Of a stretch of 64,000 nt of DNA, positions 43,609-57,518 are shown one piece after another. Within the stretch, counting starts at the first letter, position 1, and each line of letters starts with the position of its first letter. The notes beneath the pieces are model-generated. The model was not told the DNA's origin. It worked only from the letters and a program-made list of their open reading frames with translations, and searched no databases. Both the position numbers and the translations under genes were made by a program. The stretch comes from Palaeococcus ferrophilus DSM 13482. Lineage in GTDB: Archaea > Methanobacteriota_B > Thermococci > Thermococcales > Thermococcaceae. The DNA is taken from positions 186,001 through 250,000 of the forward strand of contig NZ_LANF01000011.1 in assembly GCF_000966265.1 (NCBI RefSeq), given 5' to 3'.

Positions 43609-43827
43609 ATGGGTGAAAACGTAGAGGTCGTTGAGGCGGTTTATGAGAACGGTGTGCTGAAGCCGCTTAAGCCGCTGAAGCTCAAGGAAGGGGAACATCT
43701 GGTGATAAAGCTCTACCGGAAGGACATAGTTGAAAGAACGGAAAAGTTCAGGAAAATACTCTCTCCCGAGAACTTCAAAGAAAGCCCTGAAGAGTACCTC
43801 CAGAAGCTCAGGGAGGAGCGACTATGA
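43609..43827 (+). CDS. AF2212/DUF104-family antitoxin
   Basis: A 72-residue antitoxin of the AF2212-like (DUF104, UPF0165) family, starting EVVEAVYENGVLKPLKPLKL and GEHLVIKLYRKD; this is a small beta-domain with a charged tail that should mask the toxin. The stop overlaps the following PIN-toxin start by four bases (ATGA), the usual coupled arrangement. No clear TATA box is seen between guaAB and this gene, so it may be read from the gua promoter. Confidence 0.88.
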   Translation: MGENVEVVEAVYENGVLKPLKPLKLKEGEHLVIKLYRKDIVERTEKFRKILSPENFKESPEEYLQKLREERL

Positions 43828-44273
43828 AAGTCGTCCTCGATACCTCAGTTGTAGTCAATCTTTTTTCTGGTTTTTACCCAGATAGGTCACAAGTCGCCAA
43901 AAAGATCGCCAAGCTCTCGGAAATGGGCATCCTTGAGGTTTATGCTCCACGACTCGGAGAGTTTGAATTCGTATCGGTTTTATCCAGATTTCTTCCCAGA
44001 GAACTTGTGGAAGAAGCCCATGAGATATACCTAGAACTCGTTGCAGACTTTGTAGGGGAGGGGCTTTTATCCGATAAAATTCTCGAACTTGCATTTACGA
44101 CTGGCCATCGCGTTCCTGACCTCTACTTCGTTGCGACTGCACAACATATTAACGCCCTTCTCCTAACCAACGACCGAAAAATGGCCGATATGGCCAGATC
44201 CGTTGGTGTGAAGGCCTTCTACCTCGCTGAAGAGGCCGACGAGTTTTTCAAGCTTGTGGGGGTGGATGGATGA
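43824..44273 (+). CDS. vapC: VapC-type PIN-domain ribonuclease toxin
   Basis: A 149-residue PIN-domain protein. The acidic metal-binding residues lie in [14 protein letters not shown] (Asp6), [12 protein letters not shown] (Glu), [11 protein letters not shown] (Asp) and [10 protein letters not shown] (Asp), the standard four-acid set. VapC toxins cut tRNA or rRNA when freed from their antitoxin. Codon use is somewhat more AT-rich than in the gua genes. The stop overlaps the guaAA start (GGATGATAG), so toxin and GMP synthetase glutaminase should be made from one transcript. Confidence 0.9.
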
Positions 44274-44922: not shown

Positions 44923-45201
44923 TTGGGGCACACCCTCTACTACACCACCCGCGTTGAGAAGTGGGGCGAGTTCAAGGAGTTCCTCCAGAGGGTCTGCGAG
45001 GGAGTAGGTTACTTCTTCGAGGTCAGCGGTGAGTGCGTCACCGTAACCCCCGACTGTCCCCTCGTGGAACCCCTGAGAATACCGAGGGATGGGGAAGGTT
45101 TCGCCAAGACGAACCTTGTGGAGCCCTGTCACTCGATTTATCTCCTCGTGCTTCACTCCGTTTCTTCCTTCGGCTCGGTTGAGGTTTGGGAGGACTCGTA
45201 A
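44923..45201 (+). CDS. Conserved hypothetical small protein
   Basis: A 92-residue soluble protein starting at TTG 44923, with GGTGAT three bases before it and a TATA-like TTTTTAAAATTTTATC (about 44884-44899) upstream. Recognisable stretches are TLYYTTRVEKWGEFKEFLQR, CVTVTPDCPLVEPLRIPRDG and TNLVEPCHSIYLLVLHSV; four cysteines. The family is not recognised. The 3' end overlaps the convergent DUF2101 gene by 49 bases. Confidence 0.65.
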   Translation: MGHTLYYTTRVEKWGEFKEFLQRVCEGVGYFFEVSGECVTVTPDCPLVEPLRIPRDGEGFAKTNLVEPCHSIYLLVLHSVSSFGSVEVWEDS

Positions 45202-45899
45202 ACCTCCAGTACCCTCCTGGGAACGGCACCTTTGAGGGGCCGCTCCTCCACGAGAACCTTCACCACTGCCCCAACTTCAACGCCCTCAGCCCCCTCAACC
45301 CAGTACGTCCCTGGCCTCACGTTGGCGCTCACGTCGTCGTGGGTGCTGATTCTCACAAGGTCGCCCTTGATTTCCTCGATAACGCCGTACGTCCACTCCC
45401 TGCCGTAGCGGGAGCGGAAGACGTGCCGGAAAAGGCCCACCGCAACGAACACCGCCACGAGGTATCCGTAGAAGTAGTAGACCCCCGAAGCGTAGCGCCT
45501 GAGGAGAATGTAGCCCCCGTAGGAAAGCACCGCTATAAGTGATAAGCCGTAGTAGAAGGCCCTGTAGGGCTCGTACTCTATGAAGAAGTTGCAGTTCTGC
45601 ACGAGGATTGAGCGCATGTAGAGGAGGTAGAGCGCGCTGACCACAACGAACAACCCCGAATCCCCCGCGAAAACCGTCGCAAGGCCGACGAGGAGGTACG
45701 CCATGAAAGTGAGCTGGAGTTTGAGGCTTAGGAGCTCGTGTATCGTCACCTTCTTCCTCACGAGCCTCGAGATTATCCGAATTCTGGGCGGTTTTTCCCT
45801 CGGTCTGGGGATAATGAGGGAGTGTATAAACTCAAAAGCATCCCTTCCCGAGCGTTCCACAAGCTCCCCCAGAGAGTAGAGGAATTCATCAACGGCCAT
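45153..45899 (-). CDS. DUF2101-family membrane protein
   Basis: A 248-residue protein with a cytoplasmic N-terminus of about 60 residues (SGRDAFEFIHSLIIPRPREK), about four membrane helices (TFMAYLLVGLATVFAG, FVVVSALYLLYMRSI, YYGLSLIAVLSYGGYIL, YYFYGYLVAVFVAVGLF) and a C-terminal beta domain (EIKGDLVRISTHDDVSANV, KVLVEERPLKG). It matches DUF2101, described in Thermococcales and relatives, function unknown. ATG 45899 follows GAGGTGAAATC and lies just after the preceding stop (45904). It closes the pilin/surface array and may be part of its assembly apparatus. Confidence 0.8.
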   Translation of the reverse strand: MAVDEFLYSLGELVERSGRDAFEFIHSLIIPRPREKPPRIRIISRLVRKKVTIHELLSLKLQLTFMAYLLVGLATVFAGDSGLFVVVSALYLLYMRSILVQNCNFFIEYEPYRAFYYGLSLIAVLSYGGYILLRRYASGVYYFYGYLVAVFVAVGLFRHVFRSRYGREWTYGVIEEIKGDLVRISTHDDVSANVRPGTYWVEGAEGVEVGAVVKVLVEERPLKGAVPRRVLEVYESSQTSTEPKEETE

Positions 45900-45903
45900 G
45901 ATT

Positions 45904-48369
45904 TCACCTCTTCAGCAGGTCGTTCGCACCCTGCTCACCGAGCAGCGCCAGCGCGGTGTCCTCGTCGAGGTAGAAAGGCACCTCATCAAGGTTGCCAAGG
46001 GAATATGTGCCGTAGGAGATGCCCCACACCTTGTACCCCGTTACTTTGTTGCCGCTCCCCGCGTAGTAGTCGAGGAAGTAGTAGTCAGCACTGCTCACGT
46101 CCGTAACCGGGAAACCCAGCGTTAGCATAAGGCTCAACAGCTTATTGTCGTAGTTCGCGTGGGGTATCATGAAGCTGACGAGGCCTATCGGGTAGTACTC
46201 ATCCCCGTACTTGTAGTTCATCTCGTCCTGCATGGCGTGAGCGAGGGCAACGTAAGCGTCGTGGTTCTGGTCGCTTCCCTCGAGGCGCTCGAAGAACGAC
46301 CAGCCGTCCGTTATTCCAAAGTAGCGCTGATCAAGGAGGCAGTCAATGAGGGGCTGGATGTCGTAGGCCCTCGACGGGAGTACGGCCCCGTTTGAAGACA
46401 CGGGTATCTGCTCGACACTCCCCGTTGAGAGGGAGATGCCGCTGAAATATGAAGAGTCCTCCAGGGAGATTCCGTTGCTTTGGGGATATTTCCTGATAAA
46501 GATGTAATCGTAATATGGCCGTCTATTGGAGTTGTCACTATCCGTGACCAGGTACAGGTACCTAAGGGGCTGGACGTATGTGCGGCTGTAAGTATCGTCG
46601 TTCCTTCTGGTTAATACGTTCCCGTTTTCGTCGAGTGCATCTCTAAACGCCGCATCATAGTACGACCCTCCTTCCACCATGATGGCCTCGTATACATGGT
46701 ACGTCTGTACATCGGCCCTGCCGCTGTCCCCCAACGTATAATAACTCCACCACGGTCTGTGAACCGCAAGACCATCACCGCTGCCCGAGTAGTCATCCGT
46801 AAACAGCAGCATGTAGCCACCCGAATCGTAAACCCCAATACCGCTGTCCCAATCCTGGTTTTTGTCGCCCTTCATCCTGAACCTCACGGCGTAGGAGCCA
46901 AAGTATCCAATATCCGTGGCCGTTCTTATTGCTTCCACATTGTTACCGCCATCAAAGTAGAGTTCCCCACTGGAAATCAAGGGGGTTCTCTCAACGCTGG
47001 CCCACTTATCGTCCCACGTCCCGTCCTCAAAGTCGTCGAAGAATATGAAAACGTCATCACCGTTGCCCTTGGTCGGTGCCCCTGAGCCAAAGTAGAGTGA
47101 GTACGTTTTGGATTCCCCGTTTGTTAGTGAGTCTCTGATCCATATAAGCGCCTTCTCGTTGGTCGGATCCCAGTACTCAATCCAGAAAGGAACGGGGTTG
47201 CAGTCCTGGTCATATATCGCAATGCTTGCCCCATTTTTAAATATGTCCGAATTGCCATCATTCCCAGCGTGCTGGAAGAGGAAGTCTACGAGCGACCCGT
47301 TGGCTAATTTGGATGAGGAAATGAGTATGGGAATCTGGTAATCCGAGAGATCAACGCCCATCCCATTGGTGACCGTAAGATTAAAGCGATAGTTCAGAGA
47401 GCTGCACCATCCCAGGCTTCCTAGGGAAGTATTCCCGAAGACGAGGACTCCCATGTCCCCCTCATTAAACACCCTACCGGGATCCACGGAAAGCCCATTA
47501 CGGGTCGTGTTGACGATTATCGGCCTGGTAGTGACGTTGGGGTCACCCTCCTCAAGCACGTACGCGTCGGCACCATCAACGTAAGTGCTCCCGAAGAGTA
47601 TCTTACCTGCCTCGGGTACCTGGGATAGTAGGCCTATGTAGTGATCCGATGAGGAGGAGCCGTTTCCATTGAGCACTTTGAAGGGCGGGGCCAGTTCAGG
47701 GAAGGAATACTCACACGCCCTCACGGAGCGCTGATACCTGCCCCCCGTCATGGCCGAGAACACCGGGTCCTCAAGACCCCTTATGTCTACGGTGGAGTAG
47801 GCGTAACCACCTGAGGAAGGCACCGGGCCGGTGTAAACCACCTTCCCCGAGGCGTCCGCTATGGTCACTTGGGGAATCCTTGCCTTTATTACGACGGTGA
47901 ACGCATCCAGCGGTGCCACCTCAAGTTCAAGCGATGAGAGGATGTCCGAGGTGGAGGAGAGGGTGTACCCCTGATTCTGGAGTAGTGTCGTTACGTTCGA
48001 CAGCCACACCGCTATAGTCTGGTCTTCAATTGTTCTGCTGAGGTCGTACCCGGTGATTGATGAGGAATTGCCAGTGAGGATTAGGTCTGCTATGGTGTTG
48101 TTGACCATGTAGTTCGGGCTTATGAACCTTCCGGTGACGGCGACGTAGTCCACAACGGCCACGACGGCCCTCTTGCCCGAGATTTCCAAGGCCTTTTGAA
48201 AATCGAGGTCGAGGAACGTTACTACATTGTAGGTTCTCTCAACCTGCGTTCTCTCGCTCTGGGCACGGATGATCTGAGAGGAGACGTCCTCATACGTAGC
48301 CAAGAGAAGCAGCATGGGGATTAAAAGGACGAGAACGGCCGAGTTAAGGAGGAATCCTCTCCGCTTCAT
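45904..48369 (-). CDS. Large surface protein with pilin-like N-terminus and DUF2341 domain
   Basis: An 821-residue exported protein. The N-terminus MKRRGFLLNSAVLVLLIPML is basic then hydrophobic, like a class III (type IV pilin-type) leader but without the usual Gln-x-Ser-x-Glu. A middle region (about 330-480) fits DUF2341: IPILISSSKLANGSLVDFLF, IWIRDSLTNGESKTYSLYFG, then a jelly-roll-like domain FDDFEDGTWDDKWASVER. The C-terminal part (about 640-820) is unknown. ATG 48369 overlaps the upstream stop (TGATG) with GGAGGG. It is likely a pilus tip or adhesin component anchored by its N-terminal helix. Confidence 0.8.
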   Translation of the reverse strand: MKRRGFLLNSAVLVLLIPMLLLLATYEDVSSQIIRAQSERTQVERTYNVVTFLDLDFQKALEISGKRAVVAVVDYVAVTGRFISPNYMVNNTIADLILTGNSSSITGYDLSRTIEDQTIAVWLSNVTTLLQNQGYTLSSTSDILSSLELEVAPLDAFTVVIKARIPQVTIADASGKVVYTGPVPSSGGYAYSTVDIRGLEDPVFSAMTGGRYQRSVRACEYSFPELAPPFKVLNGNGSSSSDHYIGLLSQVPEAGKILFGSTYVDGADAYVLEEGDPNVTTRPIIVNTTRNGLSVDPGRVFNEGDMGVLVFGNTSLGSLGWCSSLNYRFNLTVTNGMGVDLSDYQIPILISSSKLANGSLVDFLFQHAGNDGNSDIFKNGASIAIYDQDCNPVPFWIEYWDPTNEKALIWIRDSLTNGESKTYSLYFGSGAPTKGNGDDVFIFFDDFEDGTWDDKWASVERTPLISSGELYFDGGNNVEAIRTATDIGYFGSYAVRFRMKGDKNQDWDSGIGVYDSGGYMLLFTDDYSGSGDGLAVHRPWWSYYTLGDSGRADVQTYHVYEAIMVEGGSYYDAAFRDALDENGNVLTRRNDDTYSRTYVQPLRYLYLVTDSDNSNRRPYYDYIFIRKYPQSNGISLEDSSYFSGISLSTGSVEQIPVSSNGAVLPSRAYDIQPLIDCLLDQRYFGITDGWSFFERLEGSDQNHDAYVALAHAMQDEMNYKYGDEYYPIGLVSFMIPHANYDNKLLSLMLTLGFPVTDVSSADYYFLDYYAGSGNKVTGYKVWGISYGTYSLGNLDEVPFYLDEDTALALLGEQGANDLLKR

Positions 48370-50435
48370 CAGCCCTCCCTCCACACGCGGAGCGTTATTT
48401 GAACAGGCTGGAAGAGACCTGGGATATTACCCATCGAGGCGAAGTCAATCTTCACGGATTCCGGTAGCTGCACGAGTATTGGACTATCCTGGGTTCCATC
48501 ACCACCGAGATTGTTGAAGAGCCTCACGAGGGCATCGTCAACCGCGTAGATATCCCTTCCGTCGAGGAGTTCCTGGGCCGTAACGGGACAGTAGGGCTCG
48601 TCCCCCGCGGTAATGTAGTGCGGGTTATCGTCACCATCCCAGTAGTATGTAATGTTGTATCCACCGCAGCCATCGCGAATGAACTTGGGGAAGACGTCGC
48701 CATAGCCGGCGTAGCCCTGGATGAAGAAGTTTATAACCGCCCTGCTCTCCCCCTCTCTGAAGCCATACTGGTTAACATCCGAGCTCTCCGCCACGTACGT
48801 ATTGGTCTGACCAGGGATCATCATGTCGTCATTAAGCCTCGAGTAGGCCGCCCTTATCATGTAGATGTCCGAGTAATTGTTGTATATCACCTGACCGTTT
48901 TCCGAGAGGGTCGTGTAGGAGGAGGGTGTGTACGTTGTGAACTGGATTGCGGTCCATACGTCCACGTACCACGGATCAGCCACATCGGGGATAACGTAAT
49001 CGAAGCTCATTCTCTGATACCTCACCCCAGAGGATGGCCCGCTGTACTGTATGTCCCCATAGTCTTTGAATATTGAAAGGGGAATCGAGTACCTGGTGGT
49101 CACAGTAGTTGGGATGTAATTGATATCAATGTACGATTCGCCATCACCATAGAGAACCCTGAGGCGGCCAGTAGTGTCATACTCAAAACGCCTAGTGCCC
49201 GGATTCCACCATGAATCCAACGCAATCACAATGCTGAAATATGTCCTGGAGAGCTCGTCAAGGCTGAAGCCGTATGATGCCAGGGCGTTCTCTATTTCCT
49301 CCGCCGTTATATCCGTGGTGACCTTCCCTGTGGTACTGACAGTTTTATGGATAAGCTCGTAGTAGTTTGAACCGAAGGAGTAGTACACCCTCACGTCCTG
49401 AACTCCCTCTGTAACGAGGTGGAGGGCTATTGAGGTTAAATTACCCGGAACAAATAGGGCGTTAAGGTAGTATATCCCTGCATAGCTCTGCACGTGGTAA
49501 AGTTCCCCATAGCGCCTTGCGGGGTCAAATATCGCGGAGTTGGCGGTTCTCGTCCGATACTGAACCGCCATAAGGGAACCGCTACCGTAACCCATCTCCT
49601 GACAGTAATTATTTGATGGAGAAAACACTGCCGTCAGGACGTTGTCCCCTCCCTGGAGGTAATCCTGTATATCCGGGTGGTATCCGGCACTTAAAGGATA
49701 GCCGTTGAGGGTGAACTGGGAGTTCTGGGCCCACGTTCTTTGAACCAACCTTATGTCCGCGGATATTGGCACGGCATCTCCTGGGAGTCTAAAGTGACTA
49801 TTGACCCGTAGCTGGTTTGAGTAACCTCCATTGTAGAAGCACCCTGCCACAACTCTCTGTATGCCGAAGATGTCGAACCGCTCAAACGTAACCTTCGTCA
49901 GATACGCTCTCGCCATGTAGCCCCTCGGCGTCTGGTTGTAGGCGTAGCCGCTCATTATGAGGGTTGCGGGGGAGACATCGAAGGCCCTCGAGTAGTTGCT
50001 CCCCACCTTTCTTAAGTACGGGCTCGTGTAGTTGTTTATCAAAAGCTCGTAATTGTAACCCTCAAGGCTTGTGTTGAGGAGGTATCCAAGGATTATCTCG
50101 GCCTTCCGGGTGAGGTTCTCACTGGGATACACCTCAGCGGTTGCCCAGTAAGTGGCGGCTATATCAAGGGGACTCATCTCCTCCGTTACCAGACCACTCA
50201 CGAGAATCCTCTGGTCCTTCCAATCATCGAGGACCGTCTGAGGGACGAGCTCCTTCAATGAGACGGTTCTCAGAGTTTTTAGAGTATCTTCAGCAAGGTA
50301 CTTCTCCTGGTTCCGCTGGTAAGTTGAGTAGACGGCGCTGTTGCTCTCCACCACAAGGGCGCCGGTGATGAATATCGTGACCAGTAACAGGGAAAGAAGC
50401 GCATCGAGTGTAAACACAAACCCTCTTCTCTTCAT
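48369..50435 (-). CDS. Large surface protein with pilin-like N-terminus
   Basis: A 688-residue protein beginning MKRRGFVFTLDALLSLLLVT, a short basic stretch followed by a hydrophobic helix as in class III signal peptides, with TLDALL in place of the usual SLEF. The rest is a beta-rich exported region with many Asn-x-Ser/Thr sites (for example NYSRAF, NLTSIAL, NYSDIYM), likely glycosylated, and few cysteines. Large size suggests an adhesin or minor pilin. The start overlaps the preceding stop (TCATGA), and its own stop overlaps the next start, so the three large genes are strictly coupled. Family unknown. Confidence 0.8.
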   Translation of the reverse strand: MKRRGFVFTLDALLSLLLVTIFITGALVVESNSAVYSTYQRNQEKYLAEDTLKTLRTVSLKELVPQTVLDDWKDQRILVSGLVTEEMSPLDIAATYWATAEVYPSENLTRKAEIILGYLLNTSLEGYNYELLINNYTSPYLRKVGSNYSRAFDVSPATLIMSGYAYNQTPRGYMARAYLTKVTFERFDIFGIQRVVAGCFYNGGYSNQLRVNSHFRLPGDAVPISADIRLVQRTWAQNSQFTLNGYPLSAGYHPDIQDYLQGGDNVLTAVFSPSNNYCQEMGYGSGSLMAVQYRTRTANSAIFDPARRYGELYHVQSYAGIYYLNALFVPGNLTSIALHLVTEGVQDVRVYYSFGSNYYELIHKTVSTTGKVTTDITAEEIENALASYGFSLDELSRTYFSIVIALDSWWNPGTRRFEYDTTGRLRVLYGDGESYIDINYIPTTVTTRYSIPLSIFKDYGDIQYSGPSSGVRYQRMSFDYVIPDVADPWYVDVWTAIQFTTYTPSSYTTLSENGQVIYNNYSDIYMIRAAYSRLNDDMMIPGQTNTYVAESSDVNQYGFREGESRAVINFFIQGYAGYGDVFPKFIRDGCGGYNITYYWDGDDNPHYITAGDEPYCPVTAQELLDGRDIYAVDDALVRLFNNLGGDGTQDSPILVQLPESVKIDFASMGNIPGLFQPVQITLRVWREG

Positions 50436-51865
50436 GAGTCATCCCACACCCACAGTTTTATCATGAGCGGCTCGAACTTCGGGACGAGGATCGGGCCAAG
50501 AACACCGTGATCCGTCATCGTAAGCGGGGCATCAAAGTTGTTTTCAACGAGCCATACCTCAACGACCTTTGAACCGCTCTCCGTGTCGAACACATCGAAG
50601 ACCGAACTGAGCGGAACCTTAACCGATGTTGAGTTGCCCTCATAGAATGCAGAACGGACCTCATCGTCCTCACGCCACGTGAGTGAGGCTTTGAGCACGT
50701 TGCTTGACTCACCGCGCCACACCATGAGTCCCTTGCTCACGCCCCCGTCCACTACCACGAACGTGGCGTTGCCGTCTCCTGTGGTTGTGAATTCGAAGAA
50801 CCCCTGGGCCGGCACATTTTGGACTAACTTACCCGCTATAATCCTCGTTGTGTTCTGAGGGAGCACTATCGTGGAGTTGTAGCGTCTCAGGGCCAGAGAG
50901 AGAGTTCTCTCCTGATACTGAACCCATGGGGAGCGGGCCCTCGAAGCGTTGACCGTATTTGTATCGGCAACGCTACCGTTGACGAGTATGAGGGACGACG
51001 TTGGGGTGGGAAGAAAGCGAGGGAACGTGACGTTTGAGAAGGCACGGAAGTTGGCCCCGGAGTTGCCCTTCACCGTTAGCTTAACCTGGCCCTGACCTCC
51101 TATGTGGAGCTCGCACACGCCGTTGTCCTCCGTGAAGGAGTAGTGGTAATTGCTCTTCTCATCAACGAGCACTATCTGGACGTACGACCCGCTCGGAACC
51201 GGATCGGCGGGGTTATCGTTGTCGGGTATAACATCAACGCGCTCGTTACCCCCCGTGAGAACCTGGGCAGGGTCAATCGTTATGAACTCAAGGACATCAC
51301 CCGGATCAAGATCCAGCGCCTGACCGTAGGGAGAGGGTTCACCGTTTAGCTTAACGCTGTCGCATTCAACCTCAAAGGCCCTGTTCCCGCTGTTGTCCGT
51401 GGCAAGGGCGAACTTTATGTTGTCAAAATCCCCCGTGAGGTCGGCGTATATCTCCTGCGCAAAGGAGCCGTTTATCGTGACGTTAACCACGGTGAGGTAG
51501 ATGTCCATTTGAAAGTCCTTCCAGCGGCTGAGGTTGTAGAGGGATGCCTGGAGCGCGGAGGAATTGGAGAAGGAGGTGATAAGGGCCTCGATCTTGTCGT
51601 AGTCGAGGGCGTATGAGTAGTTCTCGCTTCTGAGCCCAACGACCTTCACACTTGCCGGGTTCTCCTCCCAGTTGACCGGATTGCCGGGGCTCTTGACGAG
51701 AACGTCGAGCATGCTGTCCGCTATGTTGGCCCTGTCGTACCAGTCAATCACGTTGGTTATTTCAGCCTTTATCATGTCGTTCGTGTTGAGTACGACTCCC
51801 ACGACCATGATGACGAGGACCACGGAGAGGAGCGCGTCCATTGAAAGGAGCTGGGCCCTCCTCAT
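50432..51865 (-). CDS. Surface protein with pilin-like N-terminus
   Basis: A 477-residue protein starting MRRAQLLSMDALLSVVLVIM, a variant class III leader: basic residues, a Gln, then Ser and Asp two residues apart, followed by a hydrophobic helix. The external region has numerous Asn glycosylation sites (NVTINGS, NSGANF, NASRAR, NTTRII) and beta-rich stretches such as YVQIVLVDEKSNYHYSF. ATG 51865 has GGTGAGGGG upstream and overlaps the stop of the small pilin before it by four bases. It is probably incorporated into the same filament or surface complex. Confidence 0.8.
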   Translation of the reverse strand: MRRAQLLSMDALLSVVLVIMVVGVVLNTNDMIKAEITNVIDWYDRANIADSMLDVLVKSPGNPVNWEENPASVKVVGLRSENYSYALDYDKIEALITSFSNSSALQASLYNLSRWKDFQMDIYLTVVNVTINGSFAQEIYADLTGDFDNIKFALATDNSGNRAFEVECDSVKLNGEPSPYGQALDLDPGDVLEFITIDPAQVLTGGNERVDVIPDNDNPADPVPSGSYVQIVLVDEKSNYHYSFTEDNGVCELHIGGQGQVKLTVKGNSGANFRAFSNVTFPRFLPTPTSSLILVNGSVADTNTVNASRARSPWVQYQERTLSLALRRYNSTIVLPQNTTRIIAGKLVQNVPAQGFFEFTTTGDGNATFVVVDGGVSKGLMVWRGESSNVLKASLTWREDDEVRSAFYEGNSTSVKVPLSSVFDVFDTESGSKVVEVWLVENNFDAPLTMTDHGVLGPILVPKFEPLMIKLWVWDDS

Positions 51866-52326
51866 CCCCTCACCACCCGAACGTTAACCACTATCTCGCG
51901 GTTAGAATAGATCAGCTTTGAACCGCTCTTTCCCGCGTTCGTATTCCTCGCAACGTCCTCAACTATAAAGCTCTCCATCAGGTCGGGGGCACTCGACGGC
52001 AGGGCCGTGGAGGATACGAAGGTGAGGGTTATGTTAACCGTCGTGCCGTTGTCGCTCACCGTCATGTTGACGAGGCCGAGGTGGGGGTTCCCGCTGATGT
52101 TCGAGAGGAGGGGGTTTAGGATGGTGTAGGGGCTCTCGTTGTACGCAACCCCCACGTTTATGTAGTCGGCCGCGTGGGAGGCCGAGGCCCTGACGTAGGC
52201 CGCCACTGACACGGTCCTGTTCTCGTTTAAGTAAGCTGGAACGACGACGGCTATCCCCGCCATCACAATGGCCACTATGAAGAGGGTCTCAATGGCCGTC
52301 TGCCCCCTACGGCTCAATCTTAACAT
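51862..52326 (-). CDS. Class III signal-peptide pilin-like protein
   Basis: A 154-residue pilin-like protein. The leader RLSRRGQTAIETLFIVAIVM has the archaeal class III pattern: basic, Gly then Gln, with Glu at +5 and a hydrophobic helix that would form the filament core after cleavage before Gln9 by a prepilin peptidase. The globular part is beta-rich with several Asn-x-Ser/Thr sites (NESPYT, NMTVSDNGTTVNITLT). The start lies within the upstream gene's 3' end (overlap 20 bases), with GGAGGCGAG before ATG 52326. Confidence 0.85.
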   Translation of the reverse strand: MLRLSRRGQTAIETLFIVAIVMAGIAVVVPAYLNENRTVSVAAYVRASASHAADYINVGVAYNESPYTILNPLLSNISGNPHLGLVNMTVSDNGTTVNITLTFVSSTALPSSAPDLMESFIVEDVARNTNAGKSGSKLIYSNREIVVNVRVVRG

Positions 52327-52741
52327 AGAGCTCGCCTCCCGTTACGTTGGCAACCATCCAGAAGTCCCGCTTCGAGTCGTCGAGGGTCACGCTGGAGTCC
52401 ATAAGGGGTACGGTGGAATTCTGGACTATCGAGTAGCCTTTCCCGCCGATGGACGCGTTTATAACTATCCTGTTCCCAGTGGAGTTGAAGGTGACGGTAA
52501 CGCTATCACCGCTCGCTATTGTGAAGGGGAGCGTAACCTTCTTCCTGAAGCCTTCTCCAACGGCGTAGACCTTAGCGGCATGGTCCCTCACGGTTATGGA
52601 GAACGTCTTCACCTTCGCAAGGCTGTCGAGCGTCTCGGCATGGGCCACCTCGCTCGTGGAGAGGTAAACTATGTTGGTGATCGTGAGCATTACAAGGAGC
52701 ATCGCGAATAGAATATCCAGACTGAGCTGGCCCCGACCCAT
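52307..52741 (-). CDS. Class III signal-peptide pilin-like protein
   Basis: A 144-residue pilin-like protein beginning MGRGQLSLDILFAMLLVMLT; cleavage is expected between Gly4 and Gln5, leaving a Gln-Leu-Ser-Leu-Asp start and a hydrophobic core helix. The C-terminal domain has YSIVQNSTVPLMDSSVTL and WMVANVTGGELYVKIEP. ATG 52741 is chosen because GGTGGATGAT precedes it; the frame extends to GTG 52750. It overlaps the preceding pilin's stop region (52743) almost exactly. Confidence 0.85.
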   Translation of the reverse strand: MGRGQLSLDILFAMLLVMLTITNIVYLSTSEVAHAETLDSLAKVKTFSITVRDHAAKVYAVGEGFRKKVTLPFTIASGDSVTVTFNSTGNRIVINASIGGKGYSIVQNSTVPLMDSSVTLDDSKRDFWMVANVTGGELYVKIEP

Positions 52742-52742
52742 A

Positions 52743-53351
52743 TCATCCACCCGGCTTAATGTTTATTCTTATCGTTGCGTTCTGGAAGGTCCAGTTCTCG
52801 GGGGCGCTGGGATTCCACTCCACCACTATCGTTATCATAGAGGGCAGCGAGCCGGGGGAAAGCGAGAGTCCGTAGAGCGTGGTGCCGTTTACCGTTATGC
52901 TATCCGGAAAGACCGTCGAGTTCGTCGTGATGTCTTTTTTGTAGAGTGCCTCACTCCAGAAGACGTTCCTCCTGGTGGTGTTCGTCTCGTTGAGGTTGAG
53001 GGTCGGGTTAGAGGGGTTTATGATATCCACATACGTGCCGTTGAGGTATGAGAGGAATACCACCATGCTGGAATTCGTGCCGTAGGCCTTTTGGAGGGTG
53101 CTCTGGTCGTTGAGGTAGCGGAGGTGAAGGTAGGTGGTGGCCTTTGAGCCGGGCCCCTGAGCGTAAACCTGGGAGATGGTGTTGGAGATGGCGTTTGCCA
53201 TGTGTTTGGCCTCTATACTAACCTGAACCCTCAGGGTATCAACGGATGCAGAGTTCTGGGTGAATGTAACGTTGTTGACCGAATAGACCAGCAGCACAAG
53301 GAATATCGCAAACACGAACATGAACTCCAGCGAAACCTGACCTTTCCTCAT
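52743..53351 (-). CDS. Class III signal-peptide pilin-like protein
   Basis: A 202-residue pilin-like protein with the textbook archaeal class III leader MRKGQVSLEFMFVFAIFLVL (cleavage before Gln5; Gln-x-Ser-x-Glu). The hydrophobic helix spans about residues 6-25. The external domain carries several N-glycosylation sites (NSSMVV, NGTYVD, NETNTTRRN, NSTVFP). Such leaders are cut by prepilin-type peptidases and the helix packs in the filament. ATG 53351 has GAGAGG upstream; ATG-less codons up to 53366 are ignored. It is the first pilin of the array. Confidence 0.88.
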   Translation of the reverse strand: MRKGQVSLEFMFVFAIFLVLLVYSVNNVTFTQNSASVDTLRVQVSIEAKHMANAISNTISQVYAQGPGSKATTYLHLRYLNDQSTLQKAYGTNSSMVVFLSYLNGTYVDIINPSNPTLNLNETNTTRRNVFWSEALYKKDITTNSTVFPDSITVNGTTLYGLSLSPGSLPSMITIVVEWNPSAPENWTFQNATIRINIKPGG

Positions 53352-53384
53352 TCCTCTCACTCCCATACCTAACTCGCCCTCAAA

Positions 53385-54020
53385 TTATTTAACGTTTTCA
53401 CCGGGAGCTTCCTCCGGGAGGACGTATGCCACGGTGCCCTCCTTTCCCCTCTCAACGCTCACCCCGAAGTAGTCGTAGTTGAACACCTTGAAGCCGTAAC
53501 TCCTGGGATCGAGGGCGTACTTTTCAACGAGGCCCCGGAGCTCATCAATGAAGAACTGCCCGAGCTGGTAGTAGCGGAAGTCAAGGCCGTTCTTTCCCAC
53601 GTCCCTCACGAGCAGAAGGAGGGGTATGGAACTCAACCCCACGAGCACCCACGGCTGTCCGTACAGCACGGTCAGTATGAGCGTTACGCCGAAGGTTACG
53701 CCCCACAGGGCATAGGCTATCCTGACAAAGGTTCTCAGCTTCTTCATCTCCCCTACCTTGCGCTCCCAGATGTCGAGGAGCGCTGGATTGTAGAAGTCAA
53801 ACGCCGTGTGCCTCTTTCCCTTGGCAATGCGCTTCCTTATGAGGTCGTCCCAGTCATCGTTGTAATAGATTACCTCCCCCCTGTTCCGGGCGCGCTCGGC
53901 ATCTATGGAGGAGATTATCCTTATCATGTCCTCTGCGCTTTCGTGGGCTATATGGGAATAGACGGACTTCTCATCGAGGTCGAGGGCCACCTCCACAGAA
54001 TCCCTGATGCGCTCACTCAT
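53385..54020 (-). CDS. Two-helix membrane protein, unknown
   Basis: A 211-residue protein with a soluble N-terminal half (EVALDLDEKSVYSHIAHESA, RGEVIYYNDDWDD), a hairpin of two membrane helices (VRIAYALWGVTFGVTLILTV, WVLVGLSSIPLLLLVRDV) and a C-terminal cytoplasmic domain. It overlaps the CetZ gene upstream by eight bases with GGGAGG before ATG 54020, and precedes the pilins by about 30 bases. It could link the tubulin-like protein to the membrane filament base, but that rests on position only. Confidence 0.72.
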   Translation of the reverse strand: MSERIRDSVEVALDLDEKSVYSHIAHESAEDMIRIISSIDAERARNRGEVIYYNDDWDDLIRKRIAKGKRHTAFDFYNPALLDIWERKVGEMKKLRTFVRIAYALWGVTFGVTLILTVLYGQPWVLVGLSSIPLLLLVRDVGKNGLDFRYYQLGQFFIDELRGLVEKYALDPRSYGFKVFNYDYFGVSVERGKEGTVAYVLPEEAPGENVK

Positions 54021-55179
54021 CCTCCCGCCTCCTCAAACGCTTAACAACGCCCTCGACGTCCGCATCAGGGAGGGTTTCCACCGTTCTCTCTCCGGGCATT
54101 CCGGGATAGACATCATCAAAGTCGGGGAGCCCCTTCAAAAGCTCCCTCTGCTTTACCTCCGCCTCCCTCTTCGCCTGCATGAACGAGGAGGCGTACCTCT
54201 TGGCGGTGAGTACTATCTCCTCTATGCTCCTGCTCTCGTAGATGCCGCTGAGCAGGGTAACCACCTCAACCTCCCTCTCCCTCGGGTCGGGGTAGAAGCC
54301 CCTAAAAATCTGCTTGCCCCTTATCTTCTCCGTGAGGTAGTTGAGGGCGTCAAAGATTTCGTTCGCCTTCAGAAGCTCCGGCGGGCCGTGGATCGCCACC
54401 AGACCGTAGAGGGCGGATTCGATGTTCGCCTCAAGGTAGAGGCCCTCGCTCTCAAAGGACTTGAGGATTAGACGCTCGAGGCTCTTGACGCGGGAGGCAT
54501 CCTCCTTGGCGTAGCCCACTGTCGCGAAGCTGCCAAAGGCCTTGAGGACGAACTTGAGGTCGCTGCCGTCGAGGGTCTGCTCGCCCGGCACGTCGATCAG
54601 CGCCAGGAGGGAAGCTATGCGCTCCACTATGGTGTAGTTTATCTTCTCGTAGGCCTGGGTTATATCGTCACCGCTCTCGCGCAGCTTGTTGTTGTCTATC
54701 GCTATTATCGAGTCGGCCACCTTCGAGAGCTTGTCTATGGTTATGGCCGCGTTAATGGTCGGCCTTATGCCCTCCTCCTTCAGAGGGAGCGCTCCTATGG
54801 CCACCACGAGTGAATCCGGATACTCCTCCTTGAGGGCCTCCGCGAGGACGGGCGTTCCTCCCGCCCCTGTGCCCCCTCCAAAACCGAAGGTGAGGAAGAA
54901 TATGTCCACGTCCTCCCGCCCGATTATGGAGTTTATCTTCCTCATCACCATGGGGAGATCGCGCCTCATGGACTCCCTGCCGAGTATGGGGTTGGCGTTG
55001 ACGCCCTTTCCTCCCGTCAGGCTCTCTCCCACGAGGATTCTGCGCTCTGCCGGAACGTGCTTTAGGTACTCAAGGTCTCCCCTCGAGGTGTTTATGGCAA
55101 GAGTCTCAAAGTCAACCAGGGCGAACAGATCAGCTATCTTGGTTCCGCACTGGCCGATTCCAAGTATTAGAGCCCTCAT
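54013..55179 (-). CDS. cetZ: CetZ-type tubulin/FtsZ-superfamily GTPase
   Basis: A 388-residue member of the tubulin superfamily close to archaeal CetZ. It starts MRALILGIGQCGTKIADLFA (GTPase fold strand and Q-C-G loop), has the tubulin signature TFGFGGGTGAGGTPVLAEAL (about residues 97-116), NSIIGREDVDIFFL before it, and NAAITIDKLSKVADSIIAID with the Asn/Asp that contact guanine. CetZ proteins polymerise and govern cell shape and motility-structure placement in haloarchaea; here the gene leads the pilin array. ATG 55179 has GGGTGAT upstream. Division FtsZ genes would be elsewhere. Confidence 0.87.
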   Translation of the reverse strand: MRALILGIGQCGTKIADLFALVDFETLAINTSRGDLEYLKHVPAERRILVGESLTGGKGVNANPILGRESMRRDLPMVMRKINSIIGREDVDIFFLTFGFGGGTGAGGTPVLAEALKEEYPDSLVVAIGALPLKEEGIRPTINAAITIDKLSKVADSIIAIDNNKLRESGDDITQAYEKINYTIVERIASLLALIDVPGEQTLDGSDLKFVLKAFGSFATVGYAKEDASRVKSLERLILKSFESEGLYLEANIESALYGLVAIHGPPELLKANEIFDALNYLTEKIRGKQIFRGFYPDPREREVEVVTLLSGIYESRSIEEIVLTAKRYASSFMQAKREAEVKQRELLKGLPDFDDVYPGMPGERTVETLPDADVEGVVKRLRRREDE

Positions 55180-55187
55180 TTATTTAA

Positions 55188-57434
55188 TCACCCCACGATG
55201 TCCGCGGTGAGTTCCCTCACCTCTGCAACGCCGTCTCCGTTGTCGTGGAACTGGACGACGATGGCGTCGCCCTTCAGGTACTTTATCAGGCCGGAGTCGA
55301 AGAGGGTCCTTACGGCGCTCGAGGTGGCCGGCTCGTAGAGCACGAAGAGGACGTAGCCGTTCTCGTACTTTCCTGGGATGAGGAGTATTGAGTTCTCCGT
55401 GTAGTATGCCCTTCCCTCCACGTTGAGCATACCGTTCTCGATTGAGACGCTCAGGTAGGGGTTGTAATCATCGAGGTTGAAGTCGGAGTAGTCCGCGAGG
55501 ACTATGTAGTTTCCATCCTCAAAGGAGTCGAATGCCTCGACGCTCGCGTTGGCGTCAAAGTAGCGGAGTAAATCGGCGCTAACGGCCTCGGCGTCGGTCT
55601 TCCTTCCGTCGGTGTAGACCACTGTGAACTTCTCCTCGCCGAGGAGGCGGGTGACGTCGTACAGGTTTGTCTTGGGTATGAACTTGAAGTTTGAGAGGTA
55701 AATCGTGGAGAGGGCCAGGTCCGGGACGCTCTCCTTCCTGGACTCCTCCACCAGTTTGAGGGTGTCGTCGTCGAAGTTGTAGCCGAATTCCTTGAGGAGC
55801 TGGGTGACCCTTATGGTCATCTCGAGGCTCTTCACACCCTCGTAGAGCACCACACCGTGGAAGACGTTCTCCTTGATCATGGGCCAGCTGCCGTCCTCGA
55901 GCCTCTGGGCGAGGAGCCACTGGACGTGCCCCTCAAGCTCGTTCTTCGTTGATATCGGGAGGAGCGCCTCCAGAACCTCCAGCGTGGTGGGAACGTTTGA
56001 CGAGAGCATGGACGAGTAGTACTTCGTCCTCACGTAGGTACCCCAGCCGCCGTTGGATATGGAGAGAAGCCAGTTCTTGGCCGCTTTCACGTCCGGGTCG
56101 TCAGGACTCACACCGAGCGCCAGGAGGGCTTTGATGGCCAGGGCGGTGTCGAGGGGCTGTGGGCCGAGGAAGCTTCCCCACTCACCGTCCTTCCTCTTCA
56201 GGGACTTTATGAGCTCAATCTGCTCGGTCTTCTCCTCCTCGGAGAGCTCTCCAAACTCCGCCAGGGCCAGTATCGTGTATATGTGGGGCGGGTAAATCTG
56301 GCCGAGCTCCTTGGAATAGGCGGCATCAACGGGAAGACGACCCTTCATCCATTCAATGCCCCTCTCTATGGACGGGTCGCGGAAGTAGCAGAGCTTGAGG
56401 GCCCTGAGGGCATAGTAGGTCGCCTTCTCGTTTGAGGGGAAGCCCTGCGCGTAGCTCCATCCCCCATCTTCGTTCTGGAGGGAGCGGAGCATCTCACACG
56501 AGCTCCTGAAGGGGTTCTCCTGGGTCTCGCTTATCTTGTCAGCGCCGACGGAGAGCGCGAGGGTGGCGTAGGCGGAGGCCTCAACGATTTTGGTGTCGGA
56601 GTTGAGGAACGTGGGCTCGTCCGCCCAGTAGGTGGGGTCGGTGTGCCTCGCGTCCTCGAGGGATACGAGAATCTTGGCGGTGTCGAAGTTTATGTCCTCG
56701 TAGAGGACGACGAGGTAGGTCAGGAAGGCGCGCTCGCTCGGCTTGAGCTCCCCGCCGAGGAGAAGGCCCTTAATCTCGCCAAGCCTCTCGTCAAGATCGC
56801 TTGGGATGTACCCCACAGCGTGGTAGGCCATGAGCTTGAGGCCCTCAACCATGTAATCTGGAAAGCCGCCGTAGGAATCCACTCCCTCAACGTACTCAAC
56901 GCCCGATGGGACAACGTACGACCCCTCGTAACGGTAGCCCATGCTTCCGAGGGCCCAGATCGCCATGACGCTAGGGTAGAAGGCACTCGCGGTTCCGGGC
57001 ACGTAGCCCCATGCCTCCCCGTTGAAGGCCCCAACGAGGTAGTCAACGCCAGAATCGGCGGCGCTTTCCACGGGCTGGTACATCTCGCTTCCGGAGGGGT
57101 AGTGGCTGAGAGTGTAGGAGAGCGCGATTACAGCGTAGGAGGTGCTTATGACGTCGCTGGCCTGACCCTTCGTTCTCCCCCATCCGCCGTCAGGGTTCTG
57201 AGAGTCGAGGAGGAAGCCCGTGTAGTCATCTATGTACCCCGAGAGGTCCTCCACGGTTTTGCCCTCCGTGCTGACAAGGGCCATCAGCGCAAGGCTTACG
57301 TCCTTAATATCATCAGAAACTCCCTTTGATTCCTTGACAAAGCTGAGTGCATCCTCAAAAACGGGCTTTGCGGCCACGCTCGTGGTGGACACTAAGATAA
57401 TCGCAATGACCATTAAAGACAGTAACCTCTTCAT
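55188..57434 (-). CDS. Secreted alpha/alpha-toroid (prenyltransferase/squalene-cyclase-repeat) protein
   Basis: A 748-residue exported protein. A signal peptide (MKRLLSLMVIAIILVSTTSV) is followed by repeated cyclase-type motifs: QNPDGGWGRTKGQASD (about residue 79), LQNEDGGWSYAQG (about 315), KRKDGEWGSFLGPQPLD (about 417), SISNGGWGTYV and AQRLEDGSWPMIKEN (about 515). These belong to terpenoid cyclase/prenyltransferase toroids, which in secreted proteins often serve binding rather than catalysis. The C-terminal 180 residues are unlike the repeats. It is the first gene of the array, with a TATA-like ACTTATTTATGG (about 57484-57473) and GGGAGGG before ATG 57434. Confidence 0.85.
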   Translation of the reverse strand: MKRLLSLMVIAIILVSTTSVAAKPVFEDALSFVKESKGVSDDIKDVSLALMALVSTEGKTVEDLSGYIDDYTGFLLDSQNPDGGWGRTKGQASDVISTSYAVIALSYTLSHYPSGSEMYQPVESAADSGVDYLVGAFNGEAWGYVPGTASAFYPSVMAIWALGSMGYRYEGSYVVPSGVEYVEGVDSYGGFPDYMVEGLKLMAYHAVGYIPSDLDERLGEIKGLLLGGELKPSERAFLTYLVVLYEDINFDTAKILVSLEDARHTDPTYWADEPTFLNSDTKIVEASAYATLALSVGADKISETQENPFRSSCEMLRSLQNEDGGWSYAQGFPSNEKATYYALRALKLCYFRDPSIERGIEWMKGRLPVDAAYSKELGQIYPPHIYTILALAEFGELSEEEKTEQIELIKSLKRKDGEWGSFLGPQPLDTALAIKALLALGVSPDDPDVKAAKNWLLSISNGGWGTYVRTKYYSSMLSSNVPTTLEVLEALLPISTKNELEGHVQWLLAQRLEDGSWPMIKENVFHGVVLYEGVKSLEMTIRVTQLLKEFGYNFDDDTLKLVEESRKESVPDLALSTIYLSNFKFIPKTNLYDVTRLLGEEKFTVVYTDGRKTDAEAVSADLLRYFDANASVEAFDSFEDGNYIVLADYSDFNLDDYNPYLSVSIENGMLNVEGRAYYTENSILLIPGKYENGYVLFVLYEPATSSAVRTLFDSGLIKYLKGDAIVVQFHDNGDGVAEVRELTADIVG

Positions 57435-57518
57435 TTTTGACCCTCCCTAATTCCTATAATTGTACGCTTGCCATAAATAAGTTTTTCCTAACAATTCAAA
57501 AAGCAGAAAAAGGGAGGG

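Follow-up and report, generated by a model that had tools for sequence, protein, structure and literature searches.

A window of 64,000 nucleotides from the genome of Palaeococcus ferrophilus DSM 13482 (contig NZ_LANF01000011.1, positions 186,001 to 250,000) contains ten open reading frames that follow one another on the minus strand between window positions 45153 and 57434, with neighbor gaps of −20 to +18 bp when the ORF coordinates are checked (Table 1). The original prediction of a ten-gene, same-strand array with overlaps or tiny gaps is borne out at these coordinates, and the gene content is supported by Pfam matches and by comparison across the order. The gene said to lead the array, cetZ, in fact stands second, behind a gene for a toroid protein. 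As predicted, no match to a pilus ATPase, platform protein, or prepilin peptidase occurs inside the array. Elsewhere in the window, a PIN-like toxin ORF and a small antitoxin-like ORF that it overlaps separate the two GMP synthase subunit genes (43609-44273).

Table 1. Genes and predicted promoter-like elements of the cetZ array (window coordinates).
Feature	Position	Strand	Evidence or remark
Toroid protein, alpha/alpha, apparently secreted, 748 aa, squalene-cyclase-like fold	55188..57434	-	Pfam SQHop_cyclase_N E 1e-17, AF2, Foldseek
CetZ, tubulin-superfamily GTPase, 388 aa	54013..55179	-	Pfam Tubulin 1.8e-29, CetZ_C 3e-16
TM2, two-helix membrane protein, 211 aa, overlaps cetZ	53385..54020	-	Candidate CetZ membrane anchor
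Class III pilin, KGQVSLEF leader	52743..53366	-	Pfam Class_IIIsignal above cut-off
Class III pilin-like protein, RGQLSLDI	52307..52750	-	Leader + TM helix
Class III pilin-like protein, RGQTAIETL	51862..52326	-	Leader + TM helix
Large surface protein, 477 aa, leader RAQLLSMD, 12 sequons	50432..51865	-	
Large surface protein, 688 aa, leader RGFVFTLD	48369..50435	-	
Large surface protein, 826 aa, leader RGFLLNS, DUF2341, predicted pilus-tip adhesin	45904..48384	-	DUF2341 E 7e-20
DUF2101 multi-helix membrane protein	45153..45899	-	Pfam DUF2101 E 3e-71
Predicted promoter P1, BRE GGAAAAAC + TATA-like TTATTTAT	57473..57488	-	Upstream of toroid gene
Predicted promoter P2, TTAAATA + upstream AA/purine element	53386..53392	-	TM2-pilin junction

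The first gene encodes a protein that matches the Pfam squalene-cyclase/prenyltransferase toroid models, and its AF2 model (pLDDT 88) was confirmed as an alpha/alpha toroid with Foldseek, the matches being class II terpene cyclases and complement/A2M (alpha-2-macroglobulin) domains. The catalytic DxDD motif is without trace in all but one of 40 orthologues and is lacking in the window protein as well, and an N-terminal signal-like helix indicates secretion. Identification as a squalene cyclase was thus rejected despite the likeness in fold, since a cyclase role is unlikely for an apparently secreted protein missing DxDD; a secreted surface protein is more plausible.

The function of CetZ proteins is known chiefly from Haloferax. 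In haloarchaea, CetZ1 has a role in cell shape and motility (PMC11621097, cited here and below from part of its text). The window protein scores 104 bits against PF00091 (cut-off 33) and 60 bits against PF21011, CetZ_C (cut-off 21.6), while the NCBIfam ftsZ model gives 120 bits, under its cut-off of 295; its PDB matches are led by three CetZ structures, 4b46, 3zid, and 4b45, placing it closer to CetZ than to FtsZ. It is ~31% identical to the other two tubulin-family proteins of the Thermococcales genomes searched. The nucleotide-binding signature FGFGGGTGAGG is present, the catalytic T7 loop LD[AG]SDLKFVL is found in 38 of 41 orthologues, and all 41 end in an acidic C-terminal peptide, GLPDF[DE]DxY.

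The three predicted class III leaders, KGQVSLEF, RGQLSLDI, and RGQTAIETL, were all found in the sequence, and related leaders, likewise proposed, are present in the three large proteins. Pfam Class_IIIsignal exceeds its cut-off in one pilin; the other two were assigned by leader sequence, and these two smaller pilins and the large proteins are recognized by the leader together with a single N-terminal helix. The KGQV leader is kept in relatives, and the sixth codon of this pilin (53351) is the probable translation start, so that the protein would begin MRKGQVSLEF. The description of the large proteins as rich in glycosylation sites holds clearly for the 477-aa protein (12 sequons vs 4.7 in shuffled sequences), while the two largest show a weak signal; among the pilins, KGQV has a clear excess (9 vs 3.8) and RGQL a weaker one (4 vs 1.0). 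Orthologues of the 688-aa protein share 30-64% identity with it, and the DUF2341 domain is present in 19 of 21 orthologues of the 826-aa protein; an adhesin role has been proposed for large DUF2341 proteins (PMC4858521, cited throughout from part of its text). The large proteins vary widely in length between species (the first from 331 to 829 aa and the third from 367 to 1143 aa across loci L019-L058), as expected for fast-evolving adhesins.

Conservation of the array was assessed by searching 94 genomes for CetZ orthologues and retrieving 40 further Thermococcales loci from six genera. Gene order is identical in 40/40 of these loci and neighbor gaps are short throughout. One locus lacks the toroid gene, one lacks DUF2101 (present in 39/40), and four have no recognizable third pilin (RGQTAIETL, found in 36/40), whereas the RGQL pilin is retained in 40/40. 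Because the order is kept in every further locus, the arrangement is not due to chance. Full-length CetZ orthologues of 79-88% identity were recovered from 90 of the 94 genomes and one further orthologue is interrupted by contig ends; the other three genomes are incomplete (73-85%), and there the CetZ search matched only more distant FtsZ proteins. No other protein of the array approaches CetZ in conservation (80-87% identity among 40 orthologues); TM2 comes next (49-62%), while the remaining proteins compared range from 23 to 64%. The anticipated linkage of cetZ to pilin genes across Thermococcales therefore stands: cetZ is always linked, and routine separation was not seen in any of the 40 further loci.

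This linkage was already known. It was reported for the clade 1 type IV pilus locus of Thermococci by Makarova, Koonin, and Albers (2016; PMC4858521), citing Szabo 2007, and Brown and Duggin (2023; PMC9856176) found all 15 Thermococcales cetZ regions examined to be pilus-associated, with conserved organization, and suggested that CetZ may scaffold type IV systems. The clade 1 locus resembles the present one in its arCOG02202 FtsZ-family GTPase, arCOG03396 squalene-cyclase-like protein, minor pilins, large DUF2341 adhesins, and two TadC proteins; it differs in that the ATPase and platform genes are here unlinked to the array. The proposal of a distinct, new CetZ-dependent apparatus is consequently not supported, the locus being the published one. 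Relative to the 2023 study, the sample was enlarged here by 40 loci for gene order and to 91 genomes for cetZ-TM2, the assembly machine was located, and TM2, the CetZ C-terminal peptide, and promoter elements were singled out. The portions of the main texts of PMC4858521 and PMC9856176 consulted yielded no mention of the GLPDF[DE]DxY tail and no description of the cetZ-TM2 pairing or of a two-promoter layout. What is new is accordingly a sequence-based model of CetZ anchoring by TM2 and a predicted two-unit organization.

Of the 94 genomes, 91 carry both cetZ and TM2; neither gene was detected in the other three, which are incomplete. Wherever either gene was found, the two adjoin on the same contig and strand (91/91 genomes), and their reading frames overlap in all 41 loci examined closely. 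The TM2 sequence has neither a signal peptide nor sequons, for which reason both of its ends are presumed to be cytosolic. Of its 49 invariant residues, 41 lie within positions 7-93, ahead of both helices, which are themselves variable, and a basic KGKRH stretch occurs in 41/41 TM2 proteins. The AF2 model has a pLDDT of 80, and no PDB entry matched its fold with E <= 0.001. A genome-wide scan with peptide patterns, which reach close relatives only, returned Thermococcus/Thermococci records exclusively. Weak similarity to the C-terminal half of TM2 was seen in two-helix proteins of other genomes from the class Thermococci (E 1e-4 to 5e-3; L088:6135-6836, L089:6640-7380, L090:5426-6181, L091:6679-7581), and neither cetZ nor recognizable pilin genes were seen alongside when these loci were read in context.

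The invariant pairing with cetZ and the concentration of conserved residues in the presumed cytosolic N-terminus make TM2 the best candidate for a CetZ membrane anchor. The pattern of conserved peptides in the two proteins, together with the analogy to archaeal FtsZ-SepF, further suggests that such an anchor might bind the acidic CetZ tail. In FtsZ-SepF, a tubulin relative is tethered to the membrane by a partner (PMC8187382, PMC8178401, both cited from part of their texts), which is the mechanism proposed here, but TM2 is a two-pass membrane protein that lacks a PDB fold match and is likened to SepF by analogy.

Two promoter-like elements are conserved in the array. The TATA-like sequence of P1, TTATTTAT, is found at −40 to −50 before the toroid gene in 34/40 loci vs 1.6 expected, and a stricter BRE+TATA pattern, the BRE being purine-rich, in 28/40 vs 0.1 expected. 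Where the toroid gene is missing, in a single locus, cetZ itself is immediately preceded by a TATA-like sequence. The TTAAATA of P2 is found at −45 to −19 before the first pilin gene in 38/41 loci vs 0.8 expected, with an upstream AA at −5/−4 that does not vary in any of the 39 sites aligned, as would be expected for a BRE. A motif scan of the loci found both motifs essentially absent before the other array genes, and their spacing agrees with mapped Thermococcus promoters (PMC4247193, PMC5316973). The main text of a Thermococcus kodakarensis transcription-start study, as far as consulted, mentions neither ftsZ nor the pilins. P2 overlaps the last TM2 codons in the window species and lies beyond the TM2 stop in most relatives, a difference in position that favors selection on the DNA. 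Given a conserved element between TM2 and the first pilin gene, the array may comprise two possibly separate transcription units, toroid-cetZ-TM2 and the pilin genes. The original prediction had expected a single transcript and held that a split between 55179 and 53385 would make the cetZ-pilin link coincidental. The predicted element at the TM2-pilin junction weakens the one-operon part of this proposal, while the invariant gene order argues that the link is not coincidental despite the predicted split.

The assembly machine expected to act from elsewhere was located on other contigs. Contig 13 (G000:C13) encodes a pilus ATPase (T2SSE) and two T2SSF platform proteins, contig 18 an Arc_PepC prepilin peptidase and a 57-aa class III protein, and contig 9 two class III pilins of 68-71 aa. 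In 23/23 well-assembled relatives (one or two contigs), the ATPase is present 31-623 kb from cetZ. Assignment to clade 1, which rests on PMC4858521, draws at the genome level on the ATPase, two TadC proteins (T2SSF), and an EppA-type peptidase (Arc_PepC), all found unlinked to the array, and at the locus level on class III-leader minor pilins and a large DUF2341 adhesin-like protein, both found within it. The ATPase gene (L059:5578-8994) carries an intein with a LAGLIDADG homing-endonuclease domain, and similarly long ATPase frames in several relatives suggest inteins there too. Directly upstream (L059:3158-5633) are two genes whose products may be further pilus parts, a DUF515 protein and an unannotated protein of 341 aa with a signal-like helix at its N-terminus.

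The array is best explained as supplying the minor pilins and adhesins of a dispersed system, the clade 1 type IV pilus of Thermococcales, with a small cytoskeletal module of toroid, cetZ, and TM2 alongside. The best reading of this module, held tentatively and with somewhat less than even confidence, is a CetZ-TM2 membrane scaffold associated with the pilus, in which CetZ would position or stabilize the structure and not power it. CetZ would polymerize at the cytoplasmic side of the membrane and be kept in place by TM2: the cytosolic domain of TM2, with its basic KGKRH stretch, may bind the acidic GLPDF[DE]DxY peptide. The assembly would mark or scaffold a membrane site at which the PilB-like ATPase and two TadC-like platform proteins build the pilus, with the minor pilins of the array initiating it and the DUF2341 adhesin forming its tip.

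The main rival holds that only a regulon is shared: CetZ would be a general cell-shape or envelope cytoskeleton, anchored by TM2 for that job, which has its genomic neighborhood and perhaps growth-phase control in common with the pilus genes without acting on pili. This account is appreciably probable, though it falls well short of an even chance. Conservation is far stronger in CetZ than in the pilus proteins, which could reflect a broader role such as cell shape, in line with haloarchaeal CetZ1 (PMC11621097), and the separate conserved element P2 would allow pilin production without CetZ; both points also weigh against the scaffold. Moreover, the pilus association is lineage-specific, since it does not extend to CetZ of Archaeoglobales, Methanomicrobiales, and Methanosarcinales (PMC9856176). 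Against a merely shared regulon, the gene order is unbroken in 40/40 loci whereas the pilus ATPase has moved freely, and Halobacteria show a separate link, cetZ2 lying beside another pilus system, the pilB2/C2 regulon, which differs in having its own ATPase and platform genes inside and in belonging to a different pilus clade (PMC9856176). With both CetZ and the pilus ATPase universal in the sample, co-occurrence cannot separate functional dependence from shared ancestry.

The role of TM2 could also be different, with the protein docking to the ATPase, platform, or minor pilins and its overlap with cetZ being a matter of operon structure. Additional membrane proteins do occur in clade 1 loci (PMC4858521), and the weak C-terminal matches to TM2 sit away from any cetZ. 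These matches are, however, not among pilin genes in the loci read, the pairing with cetZ is without exception, and the predicted promoters place TM2 with cetZ, apart from the pilins; a docking role is on balance unlikely. A distinct CetZ-driven apparatus, with CetZ instead of a pilus ATPase supplying the power or movement, was suggested by the lack of an ATPase gene in the array. With a dedicated ATPase and two platform proteins in the genome, and the ATPase in every well-assembled relative searched, the array is not self-contained and a CetZ motor is not needed. The earlier suggestion that CetZ drives the structure was therefore rejected as highly improbable.

For the scaffold reading, the cetZ-TM2 pair provides a specific candidate for a CetZ membrane anchor. 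A bolder form, possible but rather doubtful, is that TM2 is an unrecognized obligate anchor that reads the acidic CetZ tail, the pair organizing pilus assembly sites in Thermococcales; if true, this would be a cytoskeleton-positioned type IV pilus with an anchor unlike SepF. With one CetZ, an invariant locus, and genetic tools, Thermococcales would allow the positioning of surface filaments by archaeal tubulin relatives to be tested cleanly.
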